A DNA stretch of 41,460 nucleotides. Origin: an uncultured Clostridia bacterium (GTDB lineage Bacteria; Bacillota; Clostridia; TANB77; CAG-508). The stretch covers positions 1-41,460 of the forward strand of contig CALXRW010000014.1 of assembly GCA_944390965.1 (NCBI GenBank). The letters run 5' to 3'. The notes beneath the pieces are model-generated. The model was given only the letters and a program-made list of their open reading frames with translations. It was not told the origin of the DNA and did no database searches. Below, in pieces: positions 18,787 to 26,474 of the stretch (position 1 is the first letter of the stretch; each line of letters opens with the position of its first letter). The position numbers and the translations under genes were made by a program.

Positions 18787-20034
18787 CTACAAATAAAGCG
18801 TGGAACGTGATGAACCGCTACCGTAGTCACTAGTTGGAAGATTCTCATTACGATTACTCACTGAGAAGAAAAGGCTATGGATTACATCATCGTAGCTACT
18901 ACCTCGATGAGCTCGATTGTTGGTAGAATATGCTTCAGTTGTCCATTCTCGATAATTTCCTTCAAGGTCATACATATTTTTCATACAATCCTGCTTGTTT
19001 TGTCCTGATAAAGCTCTACTATCTGCTATATAAGTATGCCCAATTTCTGGGTCTTCTCCATTTTCTTTTAAGAATTTTATTACTTGATCATACTGGCATC
19101 CCCATATCATTTGTTTATTTTTATCTATATTTCTTATAGTATTATATAAGCCATACCATTTATCTGCTCCTAAATAATTATCACCATCACTACTTGCTGT
19201 TGTTAATACTTTTTGATTTTTTTTGCTGTCTCCATTTGTTCCTACTTCATATCTGCTGATATAAAATCCTCCATTTTTTGCTACACTTTTTGCCATTACT
19301 ACAAAATCATTTTTTAATTGGTCAATTGTTATATTATTACTTGCATCACTACTTATAGTGTTTGGTTCATGGTAACTACTCTCATCATATATCTGATTTT
19401 TTTTCGTAAAATCAATAGTATAAGAATAAATATTATTACCCGTGTTAATATCCGAACTAATATATAATCTTCCAACTAAATTGGTAGCTGTAGCTGAATG
19501 TGTTTGGCATGTTAAGGTGTCTGTCTTTTCGTCATATACTAGATTACATTGGCTTGCTCCTGTGTTACTTTCACACATTACCATATCATTTATTTCTCCT
19601 ACAGGAATCCATACATATTGGTTTACTGTTTCTTGTAAATTTGTCGTGCTTCCTCCTATTGTAATTGTACTTTGGTTTGTACCATCTGATTCATCTTCTT
19701 TCCAATTTACTGTTGCTCCTTCTGGTATCTCATATATTACTAATCCCTCTACTATATCATCTTCTGTTGTGATTTGCGATTTTGTATATCCTTCTGGAAT
19801 TGGCACTGTCTTTCCTGCATATTCTATATATTCTTCTATTTCTCCTAACATCTCTTGTTCTTCTTTTTGGCTATTTTCATAATCTCCTACTGCTTGTTTT
19901 GCTTTATTAATAATTCCGTCATTGTCTAGTACGATATTTAATGTAACTCCTGCTAATATGATTAACACAATAATTGTTACTACCAATGCGACTAGGGTGA
20001 TTCCTTTTTCTTTTCTTCTTTCTTGTTTTTTCAT
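18787..20034 (-). CDS. Pseudopilin-anchored FGE-sulfatase-fold protein, possible DGR target
   Basis: The product has 415 residues. The N-terminus is a class III (prepilin) signal: a basic stretch, cleavage site K-G/I-T-L near residue 11, then a hydrophobic helix to about 37; Glu5 is replaced by Ala. The rest resembles the formylglycine-generating-enzyme/C-type-lectin fold: Y-V-W-I-P-V-G, F-Y-I-S-R-Y-E-V, M-I-W-G-C-Q-Y-D, N-M-Y-D-L-E-G-N-Y-R-E-W-T, R-G-S-S-Y, then R-S-T-L-Y-L at the end. That fold is the usual scaffold of diversity-generating-retroelement targets. The last about 45 codons are richer in GC and NNC codons (AGC, TAC, ATC, TTC, GAC, TCC) than the rest. No reverse transcriptase or template repeat is in the window. 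It would be a surface protein on a pilus-like anchor. Confidence 0.75.
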   Translation of the reverse strand: MKKQERRKEKGITLVALVVTIIVLIILAGVTLNIVLDNDGIINKAKQAVGDYENSQKEEQEMLGEIEEYIEYAGKTVPIPEGYTKSQITTEDDIVEGLVIYEIPEGATVNWKEDESDGTNQSTITIGGSTTNLQETVNQYVWIPVGEINDMVMCESNTGASQCNLVYDEKTDTLTCQTHSATATNLVGRLYISSDINTGNNIYSYTIDFTKKNQIYDESSYHEPNTISSDASNNITIDQLKNDFVVMAKSVAKNGGFYISRYEVGTNGDSKKNQKVLTTASSDGDNYLGADKWYGLYNTIRNIDKNKQMIWGCQYDQVIKFLKENGEDPEIGHTYIADSRALSGQNKQDCMKNMYDLEGNYREWTTEAYSTNNRAHRGSSYDDVIHSLFFSVSNRNENLPTSDYGSGSSRSTLYL

Positions 20035-20060: not shown

Positions 20061-20127
20061 GGGTTCGTCAAGACGAACCCCTACATTTTAAGTAATTCCT
20101 TTGTAGCACGGGCGATTAAAATCGCCC
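20061..20127. repeat. Two palindromic repeats upstream of the pseudopilin gene
   Basis: A perfect palindrome GGGTTCGTC-aa-GACGAACCC (20061-20080) plus CTACAT is followed by the AAGTAATTCCTTTGTAG lead and the core GGGCGATT/AATCGCCC (20110-20127). The pseudopilin ribosome site GGAGG abuts this unit. Confidence 0.85.
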
Positions 20128-20189
20128 CTACATGCTAATTATTCATTTTTCATTATTCATTAATTAAATTTTTAACATATCTCATTTCC

Positions 20190-20490
20190 TTTAATGAATA
20201 GTGAATCATTTTGGCGTAGTGGTTAATCTTGAATAATCATAAAATATAAATTATGTTTCAAAATAATTTGTTGTGCATGTAGGGGTCGCCGCCCTCGGCG
20301 ACCCAGAAAATGAACGAATTATTCATTATTCACTATTCATTTTTCATTATTCATTAAAAAATATATAAACCCTCTGGTGCTTCGCACCACCTCCCTTTGG
20401 TAAGGGAGGCAAGATTGTGATTTTTAACTTCACCTCTATCCTTGGCTCCCTTATTTAAGGGAGCTGTCGCATTTATGCGACTGAGGGTTT
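20190..20490. repeat. 301-bp direct repeat, copy A
   Basis: This segment is nearly identical to 21313-21613. It contains in order TTTAATGAATAGTGAATC, a TTGGCGTAGTGG segment, the palindrome GGGTCGCC/GGCGACCC (20283-20304), a period-7 ATTATTC array (20318-20356) and a four-hairpin element (20367-20490). Confidence 0.9.
20367..20490. mobile_element. MITE-like four-hairpin element, copy A
   Basis: Perfect 8-bp inverted ends AAACCCTC and GAGGGTTT enclose four hairpins: GGTGC-ttc-GCACC, CTCCCTT-tggt-AAGGGAG, GCTCCCTT-attt-AAGGGAGC and GTCGCA-ttta-TGCGAC. It has no coding potential. Copies B (21491-21613) and C (32091-32210) share the layout. Confidence 0.8.
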
Positions 20491-20511
20491 CTTACAAAAT
20501 CTATTTTCCAT
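20473..20511 (-). pseudogene. Twelve-codon frame cut by the four-hairpin element
   Basis: An ATG at 20511 follows AAAAAGGGAAAACT. It reads M-E-N-R-F-C-K-K and then runs into the end of element copy A, stopping at 20473. Two TTGACA promoters point at it. It may be the start of a gene lost to the repeat, a leader peptide, or chance. Confidence 0.25.
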
Positions 20512-20531
20512 AGTTTTCCCTTTTTCTTCTT

Positions 20532-20688
20532 CTTTTATTCACACCCTATTCTTTTGTCAAGGTACTTTCTATGATAAATAGCTTTTGTTGTTATCGAACA
20601 TTTCTACATGCAAAGTTTTTTTATTTTTATTGCTTTACATGTCATCTTTGTTCTTCTTTATCTTAAATGTTTTATTCTATTTTGTCAA
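20532..20688 (-). promoter_or_regulatory. Two tandem TTGACA promoters pointing away from the DnaA boxes
   Basis: Minus strand: P1 has -35 TTGACA (20688-20683), 17 bases, -10 TAAGAT (20665-20660). P2 has -35 TTGACA (20560-20555), 17 bases, -10 TAAAAG (20537-20532); a DnaA-box match (20535-20543) overlaps its -10. No intact gene follows; they run into repeat copy A. Confidence 0.45.
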
Positions 20689-20870
20689 GTATTTTCCTTA
20701 ATTGGTAATTTTAAATTTCTTTATGTTTTTGTAACAAATATTACTCTATTACTACATTTTCTTTACAAATATATGCGTTGTGTTGCAATTCTGTTTCTGA
20801 AATGTTTCATTTTGATTACAAGCCATGTTGTTATGTAACCAAAAGTTGTTTACATTGGTTTACATTTTAG

Positions 20871-20952
20871 TTATCCACATTATCTGTGGAAACTGTGGAT
20901 AACTTTGTGAATAACTATAAAATGTACACTTTTTATTCACAGTTTGTTCACA
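20871..20952. promoter_or_regulatory. DnaA-box cluster (origin-like)
   Basis: Within 82 bp there are TTATCCACA (20871-20879, plus), TGTGGATAA (20894-20902, minus box), TGTGAATAA (20906-20914, minus box), TTATTCACA (20933-20941, plus) and a one-mismatch TTGTTCACA (20944-20952). These match the DnaA consensus TTATNCACA. The surrounding DNA is very AT-rich, and a TAG-TAA-TAG run lies about 115 bp away (20744-20756, minus). No dnaA, dnaN or rpmH is next to it. The density argues for real DnaA binding; the function is not known. Confidence 0.75.
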
Positions 20953-21312
20953 ATTCATTTTTGTTATTACTTTATGCAAACCCGTTTCCAGTTATTTACA
21001 AAAATTATGTGTATCGTACGATTGTTCGTTAAGCTTCTTGTATTCTGCCCATCTGCGTATAATTCGATTATAGCAAGAAAAAGCTTCCCTTGTGGGGAGC
21101 TTCTTACTTTTTTAGGACGGCCAGGATCGTCCCATACATTAATTATTCATTATTCACTATTCACTTTTCATTATTCATTAATTTAATTTATAACATATCT
21201 CATTTCCTTTAATGAATAGTGAATAATTAATAATTAATAATGAATAATTTTTTCGGGTAATTTCTTTGTAGAACGGGTCGCTTAAGTCGCGGCGACACCC
21301 TACACATATACA

Positions 21313-21613
21313 TTTAATGAATAGTGAATCATTTTGGCGTAGTGGTTAATCTTGAATAATCATAAAATATAAATTATGTTTCAAAATAATTTGTTGTGCA
21401 TGTAGGGGGTCGCCGCCCTCGGCGACCCAGAAAATGAACGAATTATTCATTATTCACTATTCATTCTTCATTATTCATTAAAAAATATATAAACCCTCTG
21501 GTGCTTCGCACCATCTCCCTTTGGTAAGGGAGACAAGATTGTAATCTTTAATTTCTTCTCTACCCTTGGCTCCCTTATGTAAGGGAACTGTCGCATTTAT
21601 GTGACTGAGGGTT
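21313..21613. repeat. 301-bp direct repeat, copy B
   Basis: Near-identical to 20190-20490 in the same orientation, with the same palindrome (21407-21428), period-7 array (21442-21480) and four-hairpin element. It differs by a few substitutions and a G-run length change. Confidence 0.9.
21491..21613. mobile_element. MITE-like four-hairpin element, copy B
   Basis: The four hairpins are those of copy A with small changes; the last arm has a G-U-type change (GTCGCA/TGTGAC). Its right flank, TTCTTTCTTAATTGCAGTTAC, resembles that of copy C, so the element may extend beyond the GAGGGTT end. Confidence 0.8.
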
Positions 21614-21653
21614 CTTTCTTAATTGCAGTTACCTGTTAAACAATGGGTGTAAT

Positions 21654-21716
21654 TTTTAAGTAATATCTTTGAAGCACGGGCGATTAAAATCGCCCCTACA
21701 TGCTAATTATTCATTT
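21654..21716. repeat. Palindromic repeat upstream of the pilin-side block
   Basis: An AAGTAATATCTTTGAAG lead and the core GGGCGATT/AATCGCCC (21678-21695), then CTACATGCTAATTATTCATT as at 20127-20150. Confidence 0.8.
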
Positions 21717-21745
21717 AAACTTTTAGTGGAATCCCCTGCTTAAGT

Positions 21746-22051
21746 TCACGCTAATTTTAGATAAGAACCATATTTGATAAATAAATACGTAATTAATAGA
21801 ATTTCTACAATTGTAATAGTAGGAAATAATATAACAAACCTACTTTTTTGAGTCTTATGTCTAAACAAGTACATTCCAATTGTTGTTCCAATCCCTCCAC
21901 CTAAAAGAGTAATATAGAACAATGTTTTTTCTGGTATTCTCCACTTATGCTTTTGGGCTTTTCTTTTATCTAGTAACATAGCTAGAAAACCAACTAAGTT
22001 TATTACAATTAGATAAATTATAATATTTCTAATGGTAAATATATTCTGCAT
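21746..22051 (-). CDS. DUF1294 small membrane protein
   Basis: The 101-residue protein has helices at about 8-27, 46-64 and 74-95. It contains the DUF1294 pattern: M-L-L-D-K-R-K-A, W-R-I-P-E-K-T-L and L-G-G-G-I-G-T-x2-G-M-Y-L-F-R-H-K-T-Q-K. The family is widespread, and its role is unknown. It follows polC by 80 bases, filled by a period-7 ATTATTC array. The start ATG 22051 follows AGAAGGAG. It lies in the segment that interrupts the usual polC-rimP neighbourhood, so it may be an insertion. Confidence 0.88.
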   Translation of the reverse strand: MQNIFTIRNIIIYLIVINLVGFLAMLLDKRKAQKHKWRIPEKTLFYITLLGGGIGTTIGMYLFRHKTQKSRFVILFPTITIVEILLITYLFIKYGSYLKLA

Positions 22052-22073
22052 CTTCTTCTCCTTCTAATTTAAG

Positions 22074-22113
22074 ATTATTCATTATTCACTATTCATTTTT
22101 CATTATTCATTAA
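22074..22113. repeat. Period-7 ATTATTC array
   Basis: Consecutive seven-base units ATTATTC, ATTATTC, ACTATTC, ATTTTTC, ATTATTC lie between polC and the DUF1294 gene. Equivalent arrays are at 20318-20356, 21142-21180, 21442-21480 and 32041-32080, with reversed ones at about 31729-31756 and 31943-31978. Confidence 0.75.
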
Positions 22114-22131
22114 TTCAATTTTACAACATTT

Positions 22132-25100
22132 TTACCCAAAGAGGCTCATTTGGTTACTCTGGCTCATTCCCTTTAAACATCCTGCTTTATTCAGTAACTC
22201 TACTACTGTTTTTCCTATTCTAGACTTAATTCTCATATCATCAATAGACATAAACTTTCCTTCTTTTTTTGCTTCTTCTATTCCCTCTGCTGCGACGGTA
22301 CCTAGTCCTGGAATACTATTTAAAGGTGGTCTTATTCCGTCTTCTTCCATTTGGAATTTCGTTGCATGAGATTTATAAAGATCAATTGGTAAAAAATTAA
22401 TTCCTCTTTCGTACATTTCTAATACAATTTCTAGTACAGAATACATATTTTTATCTTTTGTGGTTGCTGCATTTCCTTGTAATTCTATTTCTTTCATTTT
22501 ATTTTTTACTTTTTCTTTTCCATGAATCATAATATCACTATCAAATTCATCTGCTCTTATGGTAAAGTAGGCTGTATAATAAGCTTTTGGAATATGCACT
22601 TTAAACCATGCAATGCGAAATGCCATTGTTACATAGGCTGCAGCATGTGCTTTTGGAAACATGTATTTTATTTTTTTACAGGAGTCAATATACCATTCTG
22701 GAACATTATGTTCTCTCATAATTGCTTCATATTCTTGCCATTTTTCTGGGTCTTTTGTTGCTTTTCCTTTACGTACCACTTCCATGATTTTAAAAGCAGA
22801 TTTTGGTGGTAAGCCTTGTTTAATTAAATAAATCATAATATCATCTCTGGTACAAATTGCCTCATCCAATGTAACAGTTCCTTGTTCAATTAAAGTTTGT
22901 GCATTGTTTAACCACACATCTGTACCATGTGATAATCCAGAAATACGTATTAATTCTTCAAATGTTTTTGGTCTAGTATCAACCAACATTCCTCTTACGA
23001 ATTTGGTACCAAATTCTGGAACACCAAAAGTACCTACTTCAGAATTGATTTGGTCTGGTGTAACACCTAATGCTTCTGTAGAGGAGAAAATAGACATAGT
23101 TTCTTTATCATCTAATGGTATCTTTTGTGGGTCTACCCCCGTTAAATCTTGTAACATTCTGATAATGGTTGGATCATCATGACCAAGTATATCTAGTTTT
23201 AATAAGTTCTGATCTATGGAGTGATAGTCAAAGTGCGTTGTAATAATATCAGAGTTTGGATCATCTGCTGGGTGTTGTACCGGACAAAATTCGTAAATTT
23301 CCCTTCCTAGTGGTACAACAATAATTCCACCTGGATGCTGTCCTGTTGTTCTTTTTACTCCTGTACATCCTACTGCAAGTCTTGCAATTTCAGCATTGCT
23401 TACTGGAATATGTCTTTCTTCAAAATAGTTTTTTACATAACCAAATGCGGTTTTATCTGCAATTGTACCAATAGTTCCCGCTTTAAAAGTTGTTCCTTTA
23501 CCAAAAATTACCTCTGTATATCGATGTGCTTTTGCCTGGTATTCTCCTGAGAAGTTTAAGTCAATATCTGGTTCCTTATCTCCATCAAATCCTAAGAAAG
23601 TTTCAAAAGGAATGTCCATACCATCTTTATCTAACTTGTGTCCACATTTTGGACAATTTTTATCTGGTAAATCAAAACCATTCTTTTTTCCATAGTCTGT
23701 AAAATCAGAATATTTACATTGTGGGCATCGATAATGTGGTGGAAGAGAGTTTACTTCAGTAATTCCTGTCATATTTGCTGCAAAGGAGGAACCCACAGAC
23801 CCTCTGGAGCCTACTAAATAGCCATCTTCGTTAGATTTCCAAACTAGTTTTTGTGCAATAATATACATAACAGAGAATCCATTTTTAATAATAGATTGTA
23901 ATTCTTTATCTAATCTTTGTTGTACAATTTCTGGAAGTGGGTCTCCATATAATTCTTTTGCTCTACCATAGGCGATCTCTTCAATTTGTTTCTCGCAACC
24001 TTCTAGGTGTGGTGGACATTTTTCGCTAGAAATTGGACTGATTTTTTCACACATATCCGCAATTTTATTGGTATTGGTAATTACTACTTCTTTTGCCTTT
24101 TCTTCTCCTAAATATAGAAATTCTTCTAGCATTTCTTCTGTGGTTCTCAGATACAAAGGTGCTTGCATATCTGCATCGTCAAACCCTTGCCCTGCTTGGA
24201 GAATTCTTCTATAGATTTCATCTTGAGGGTCCATAAAATGTACATCACAAGTAGCTACTACTAATTTCCCTAATTTTTCCCCGTAGTGCTACTATTTTTC
24301 GATTATTCTCTTTTAAAGCTTCTTTATCTGGCACCTTGCCTTCTCGAATCATAAAGTCGTTATTCCCTAATGGCTGTATTTCTAAATAATCATAAAATTT
24401 TGCAATTTCTTCAATTTCTTCTTCTGGTTTGTTATCTAAAATAGCTCTATACAATTCTCCTTGTTCGCAGGCACTTCCTATCATTAATCCTTCTGAATAT
24501 TTTAAATATAGGCTTTTAGGAATTCTTGGTTTTTTATAAAAATAATTTAAATGTGAAAAAGAAATTAGTTTATACAAATTTTTTAATCCTACATAATTTT
24601 TTGCTAGAATAACTGCATGATACATTTCCAAATTTTTTAAGTTAATATTTTGTGTAAATGCACCTTCTATTTCATTAATATTAGTAATATTTTTCTCTTT
24701 TAGCATTGTTAACATTACGTTAAATACTTGCATTAAAGTTATAACATCATCTAATGCTCTATGAGCATTTTCTACTTTTATATTTAATTTTTCTGCTAAG
24801 ATTCCTAATTTGTATTTTTTAAAGTCTGGAAATAAATCCTTTGCTAACCCTAGGGTGTCAATATAAGTATTGTCTAAGTTATAGCCTAATTGTTGACAAT
24901 TATAGCGAATAAAACCAACGTCAAAATTGGCATTATGAGCTACAATAACAGAATCTCCTATAAATTCTAATACTTTTGGCATCACTTTATCTATGGTTTC
25001 TGCGTCTTTTACCATTTCGTCTGTAATATGAGTTACTTCTACCACTTCTTGTGGTATTGGTTTTTCTGGATTTACAAAGCATTCGAATCTATCAATTTCT

Positions 25101-26440
25101 TTTCCATCTTTCATTTTGATAATTCCAAATTCTGTTATTTTCTCTGTTTGATAATGAAGTCCTGTTGTTTCAATATCTAGAATACAATATTCTGTATCCA
25201 AACTTTGACCATGACTATGAAAAACACTGGATACTTTATCAGCTGCCAAATATGCTTCTACTCCGTAAATCACTTTGATATCTGCTCCTGATTTTCCTAA
25301 ATATTTATGGGCATCCGGAAATGCTTGTACCACTCCATGGTCCGTAATTGCAATGGATTTCCATCCCCAGCTTACTGCTCTTTTTAGTAAATCTTCGCAA
25401 CTTGTAACAGCGTCCATCTGGCTCATTTGAGTATGCATATGTAATTCTACTCTTTTTTCTTCACTTTCATCTACTCTTTTTACTTTTTTCCTTCCTGGAG
25501 TTTCAATAATGGTATTTGCCATAACCGTAATTTCTTTTGAAAATTGGTCATATTTTGCAACACCTGCTACTTTTATTCCTTTTGCTCCTTTAATTCTTCC
25601 CAATACGTCTTTTGCTTGTTTTCCTTCTACAAATGCCTTACAAGTAATAGTACTTGTTCCATCATATAAATCGAACATGACAATTACTTTTCCATTTTTG
25701 ATTTCTCTAGAATCTGTATTAATAATTTCTCCATCTAAACACACTTTATCTGTGTCTACTGAAATATCTGCTACCTTTACTAGTTCTTCTTTGATATTTA
25801 ACGTTCTTCCATAAATCAAAGGAGATTTTTCTTCTATTTCTCCTTTTTCTTCATTTACAGCTTTGCTCTCTGTAGTTGGAGCTACCGGTTTGTTTTCAAC
25901 CTTTGGAACAAATTCTCTTGCTTTTTTTATGGCTTCTGTTTCTGCCTTTTTTACATATTCTTCGAATTCATGTTCTTCTTGCTTTTCTTGGTATGTAATA
26001 AGATATGATTTCCCATAAATACGAGAAATCAATTCTTGTATTTCAGCATCTATTTTTAGTGCATGTAACAATGTAATTCCTGCTTTATTTAATGTTAGTT
26101 CCACTTTATTTTCTATAATTTGAACTTTTGAGTTTGTTAATATTGCCTTTGCTGCTGGGTAGCTTTCTCCAATATAATTAGCAATTTCATTCCATTCATC
26201 TTGAATATCATATTCTACCTTTTGTTGGTAAGATACCTCTATTACAATCTTTTCCAATTGAAATTTCTTTTTTAAGTAAGTTTCAAAAATAGATATGTCT
26301 TTTATATTTATTTTTTGGCGGGAAATTAATTTTAATTCCAATTTGTTGCTTTTTTTGTATAAATTCATATTCTCAATTTCACAATTTAAAATACTACTAA
26401 TATTTTCGCAATCCTTAAATACTTCTTGTATGGTTTTCAT
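22132..26440 (-). pseudogene. polC: DNA polymerase III PolC-type, split by a +1 frameshift
   Basis: PolC is the Firmicutes replicative polymerase. Read in two frames, all domains are present: N-terminal and OB regions (1 to about 300), the PHP start H-M-H-T-Q-M-S (about 330), the DnaQ-type 3'-5' exonuclease (D-I-E-T-T-G near 418; H-N-A-N-F-D; H-R-A-L-D-D), the rest of PHP, a zinc motif (C-P-Q-C, C-P-K-C) and the catalytic P-D-I-D-L-N-F (about 956). The first frame continues to TGA at 24245-24247. Removing one base near 24283 joins codon CTA to GGG-GAA and restores [17 protein letters not shown], giving about 1435 residues, the normal length. No ribosome site precedes the second part's ATG (24234). 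A sequencing or assembly error, strain variation or frameshifting are all possible; the gene is essential, so an error is most likely. Confidence 0.93.
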
Positions 26441-26474
26441 CTTCAGCATTTCCCCCTTTTTGTTTTCATACCTT

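Follow-up and report, generated by a model that had tools for sequence, protein, structure and literature searches.

In Bacillus subtilis, removal of six clusters of DnaA boxes outside oriC results in early initiation of replication, according to the account given in PMC5295017, and titration of DnaA is thought to benefit from boxes near the origin (PMC12371093). Replication timing in Bacillota beyond B. subtilis is poorly known, and our literature search found no DnaA-regulating chromosomal site with a cross-genus architecture for Bacillota other than B. subtilis; a search combining polC, DnaA boxes and titration returned a general review only. The element described here, from an uncultured lineage of gut Clostridia with small genomes, is compact (∼80 bp) and obeys a spacing rule. 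Its usual place is next to a gene for DNA polymerase, at a distance from the replication origin, whose core it copies in its precise spacing.

Pattern searching of the window, i.e. the whole 41,460-nucleotide stretch of DNA analysed, revealed predicted DnaA boxes within the 82-bp span 20871-20952, four of them exact and one with a single mismatch, in agreement with an earlier note on this DNA that had reported five boxes in both orientations. That note had missed a degenerate third member of the tandem set (TGTGGAAAC at 20885, the first tandem box by position) and the polC-DUF1294 neighbours. The features of the region are as follows.

20190-20718: interspersed repeat that holds a box at 20535, outside the conserved array
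20719-21125 (approximate limits): unique, non-repeat core carrying the array
20871-20952, plus strand: whole predicted DnaA-box array, from the box pattern search and comparison with relatives
20871-20879, plus strand: upstream opposed box TTATCCACA, exact; optional in relatives
20885-20893, minus strand: first tandem box, in this genome of degenerate form (TGTGGAAAC); many relatives have TGTGGATAA
20894-20902, minus strand: second tandem box TGTGGATAA, exact
20906-20914, minus strand: third tandem box TGTGAATAA, exact, at an offset of 12
20915-20943: spacer before the conserved opposed box, of fixed length but variable sequence among relatives
20933-20941, plus strand: extra opposed box TTATTCACA, exact, at +39, roughly one helical turn short of the conserved position
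20944-20952, plus strand: box TTGTTCACA, one mismatch, at the conserved +50 position
21081-21112: terminator-like hairpin, bidirectional, between the DUF1294 gene and the array
21126-21640: interspersed repeats, outside the conserved array
21746-22051, minus strand: DUF1294 gene, the usual neighbour of the array
22132-26449, minus strand: polC (PolC-type DNA polymerase III alpha), in two ORFs

Pattern searches of the contigs gave 84 exact TTATNCACA boxes genome-wide, compared with 68 for a reversed control pattern (1.44 Mb, 47 contigs). At the observed box density, only ∼1e-6 clusters of four boxes within 71 bp would be expected by chance in a genome of this size. The same genome search found a second cluster in the dnaA/oriC region on contig C17 and no others. 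A search of plasmid records gave no match, and Rfam and tRNA scans of the window found none of either.

The 301-bp direct repeats described previously at 20190-20490 and 21313-21613 do exist and are 96% identical, but the statement that they bound the segment exactly is incorrect. Because window positions 20318-20718 align without interruption to a single region of contig C7 (409 alignment columns, 84%), the 20490/20491 boundary falls inside a repeat, and 21126-21312 is also repeat. Pieces of the 301-bp repeat gave 96 partial matches across the genome, and the repeats are members of a scattered family. AT-rich interspersed repeats of this kind occur within 20086-22121 and on many contigs, with ATTATTCATTATTCACTATTCATT units, an GGTCGCCGCCCTCGGCGACCC hairpin and CTCCCTTTGGTAAGGGAGG parts, and some copies are at contig ends. 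The additional box claimed at 20535-20543 is indeed present (TTATTCACA at 20535), as are TTGACA hexamers near 20555 and 20684 that had been read as promoters; the box is inside the interspersed repeat, as are the hexamers by position, and it is not part of the conserved array.

Near-identical repeats on both sides of the segment had raised the possibility that the assembly joined a piece of oriC through them. This reading is rejected, and we regard it as barely credible, since the order polC-DUF1294-array recurs in many independent genomes, the segment occurs only once in the genome and has a sequence unlike that of oriC, and the oriC on C17 is intact. On that contig, rnpA and yidC are divergent from dnaA, which is followed by dnaN, recF and gyrB; boxes are located both upstream of dnaA and in the dnaA-dnaN interval, a DnaA-trio run (TAGTAGTAATAGTAGTAG) adjoins them, and the sign of the GC skew switches at the dnaA region.

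The proposal that the array is a second or relic replication origin, of the chromosome or of an integrated element, draws on the match between its layout and the box array of oriC. In several relatives, the boxes beside the trios at oriC form the same three-box array with offsets of 9 and 12 (TGTGGATAATGTGGATAAC-NN-TGTG...). Of the features expected of a Bacillota oriC, the array has the box cluster and has neither an adjoining DnaA-trio or unwinding element nor dnaA/dnaN with a GC-skew switch. GC skew is negative throughout the window, and no replication-initiator gene was recognized near the array, in line with the earlier note, which saw no dnaA nearby and argued against an active bidirectional origin. 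The TAG-TAA-TAG run noted earlier is present at 20746-20754, on the minus strand; some 115 bp separate it from the nearest box, and a DnaA-trio would have to be on the other strand. Strict trio runs were found in 11 of 21 dnaA-dnaN regions, a count in which some fetched stretches may end early, versus 2 of 56 arrays, in both of which the run is set apart from the boxes. Given the same three-box layout and trios that are rare and non-adjacent, the array resembles the assembly core of oriC without its unwinding element. The origin reading was accordingly rejected on skew, trios and gene context, and conservation of the array across genera beside housekeeping genes likewise makes it very improbable.

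The array is flanked by polC-DUF1294 on one side and by rimP-nusA-infB on the other. A one-base frame shift at 24235-24290, near an A-run, divides polC into two ORFs and represents either an assembly error or a real lesion; the gene is a single ORF in several relatives. Between the array and rimP, 18787-20034 encodes a 415-residue protein that has no Pfam match and whose start seems to resemble that of a type IV pilin. The terminator-like hairpin may shield the array from polC transcription.

In relatives spanning many genera, the array is mostly found directly downstream of polC-DUF1294, intergenic and in the same orientation, and the combination was also seen in a set of genomes fetched by PolC identity alone. 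The genomes related by PolC are metagenome assemblies of Clostridia, Candidatus Merdicola among them, with a putative GTDB placement near CAG-508/TANB77. The orientation of the array relative to GC skew was identical in 40 of 41 loci, which may in part reflect simple inheritance. In two genomes (G004 and G003), the array is beside rhodanese-pfkA-argS, and in another (G008) it is between groEL and lepA, with no polC on the fetched stretch in any of the three. Retention beside these genes indicates that the array outlasts the turnover of its neighbours, and a role tied to a single neighbouring gene was disfavoured because the neighbours vary between relatives. An element through which DnaA controls transcription of adjacent genes, by promoter control or as a roadblock, would be compatible with the intergenic position, usually between co-directional genes, and with promoters elsewhere that are regulated by DnaA boxes. 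That the array stays while the downstream gene varies (rhodanese, glycyl-tRNA synthetase, the lepA region or the pilin-like gene) renders such a role improbable.

Relatives were aligned on the tandem pair TGTGGATAA-N3-TGTGAATAA. Relative to this anchor, a third tandem box, exact or degenerate, was located at -9, an opposed box at -21 to -23 was found in a minority, and an opposed box TTATTCACA was located at +49/50. Among 70 strict family matches, from which near-identical copies and oriC-type matches had been excluded, the offset of the opposed box was 49 or 50 in 66, although a wide range of spacings was allowed; in loci overall, it was 48-51 in 46 of 52. Pairwise identity was 49% in the spacer (32% when shuffled) compared with 96% in the boxes. 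Where extra boxes were found, most of them were around +37 to +40, closer by about a helical turn, and the version in the window has both the extra box at +39 and TTGTTCACA at +50. In three loci (L098, L100 and L103), variant arrays downstream of polC have a next box in the same orientation ∼42 bp from the second tandem box, rather than an opposed box at 49/50.

In an order-wide search of 385 genomes, a pattern that left 10-35 bp free ahead of the opposed box had matches in 108, and the reversed control pattern matched none of the 385. Seventeen of the matching genomes belong to other families; 14 of the 15 loci examined from these are dnaA regions, the remaining one being locus L177. A class-wide search with a narrower pattern matched 2 of 391 genomes, a result that is indicative only, as this pattern misses the window itself through the mismatch in the +50 box and few genomes of the family are among the 391. 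One match (G039) is a dnaA region from another family of the same order and the other (G699) is a stretch with seven boxes in 240 bp. A similar three-box array was observed in a further genome from another family of the order (locus L090, genome G044), near neither polC nor dnaA on the fetched stretch.

The unique segment had matches in 36 of 56 genomes, the weakest of these matches including dnaA regions, and about two thirds of the family genera sampled have the array, as estimated from reading the loci. Ten genomes for which the first search gave a short match or none were looked at again. In one of the same genus (G001), the stretch ends inside polC; in G034, polC is followed by a degenerate array; and G011 shows just two boxes. 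The remaining seven family genomes lack the array in the 2-10 kb of sequence that could be read beyond polC. The array is not universal in the family.

Wherever dnaA and the array could both be placed in a genome, they were on different contigs. One relative, G389, carries the array at 66.6 kb of a 627-kb contig. All 20 skew samples of this contig are negative and the leading strand encodes polC, which means that the replication fork comes from the far end; oriC is therefore at least 560 kb away in this 1.9-Mb genome. If the two arms are about equal, the array in this one genome lies in the later half of its replication arm.

As the array copies the origin core without the part that opens DNA, it is probably a decoy or a regulator of the timing of replication start. 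Of the two alternatives left by the earlier note, that of a moved or duplicated DnaA-binding locus is supported as regards a regulatory site by the conservation of the array, which is however old, vertically inherited, not a recent relocation and not defined by the repeats, and has a fixed architecture of its own. We put at about even the chances that it is a vertically inherited, conserved, non-origin DnaA-binding regulatory site acting, most likely, as a decoy or titration site for ATP-DnaA. The sites, their spacing and conservation, the missing trios, the location away from oriC and the likeness to the oriC array are observed; that DnaA binds, that the DNA loops and which way initiation shifts are inferred. 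DnaA on the three tandem boxes would form the same short oligomer as beside the DnaA-trios of oriC, and the DNA would stay closed because no trios adjoin the array. The complex would then be completed, through cooperative binding, by DnaA at the opposed box, which is at a constant distance of 37 bp beyond the last tandem box (49-50 bp away from the second one), and the DNA might bend or loop in the process. Most likely, ATP-DnaA would thereby be withheld from oriC and initiation delayed or sharpened.

In favour of a decoy, the array is the sole cluster of boxes outside oriC in the genome. Against it, one site of 5-6 boxes is small in comparison with ∼80 single boxes, and its position far from oriC in G389 is unlike that of the origin-proximal boxes thought to aid titration. 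The tandem pair and opposed box also resemble E. coli DARS, so the effect on initiation could have the opposite sign. The main rival is therefore a DARS-like site, at which DnaA-ADP on the tandem pair and opposed box would swap ADP for ATP and promote initiation. The cores of both E. coli DARS sites contain a tandem pair that agrees with the array core in its 12-bp offset and orientation, as exemplified in DARS1 by TGTGGATAA-N3-TGTGTATTA, and DARS1 is also distant from oriC (17.5 min, PMC5295017). By contrast, a scan of the window and of this genome's oriC for the DARS core geometry found no box I, which in DARS is opposed and precedes box II by 14 bp; the corresponding position of the window has four mismatches. 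The tandem pair is also found upstream of dnaA, hence it is not DARS-specific, and the review PMC5295017 knows no regulator of the nucleotide state of DnaA in B. subtilis. Taken together, a DARS-like site seems unlikely. More broadly, the array may tentatively be viewed as a Clostridia DnaA-control element, an oriC core array without unwinding element and far from oriC, that alters the activity state of DnaA, as E. coli datA or DARS do, rather than being a mere sink; the literature searched contained no such nucleotide-state element for Bacillota. Whether the array is a decoy or an activity switch is a question directly testable with it in vitro.

The decoy reading can be set against four known systems. 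Like the DnaA-box clusters of B. subtilis (Okumura et al. 2012, as described in PMC5295017), the array is a cluster of boxes outside oriC on a Bacillota chromosome, and both could serve as a DnaA sink. The B. subtilis clusters, as far as that source describes them, are six and oriC-proximal, whereas the array is single and far from oriC in the relative tested (G389); compared by description, they also differ from the array in its rigid architecture across genera.

In E. coli, DARS1 and DARS2 share with the array a tandem pair (boxes II and III in the same orientation, 12-bp offset) and one opposed box, an intergenic position and a location away from oriC. The array has no opposed box I at 14 bp, and it has instead a third tandem box at an offset of 9 and an opposed box 37 bp away on the other side. 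datA, likened to the array by description, similarly has intergenic DnaA boxes around a spacer whose length matters, together with an IHF site, and hydrolysis of DnaA-ATP at datA depends on IHF. Finally, the dnaA-dnaN oriC of Bacillota has the three-box array with offsets of 9 and 12; compared with it, the array is without trios, dnaA/dnaN or a skew switch, and has an additional opposed box at +49/50.
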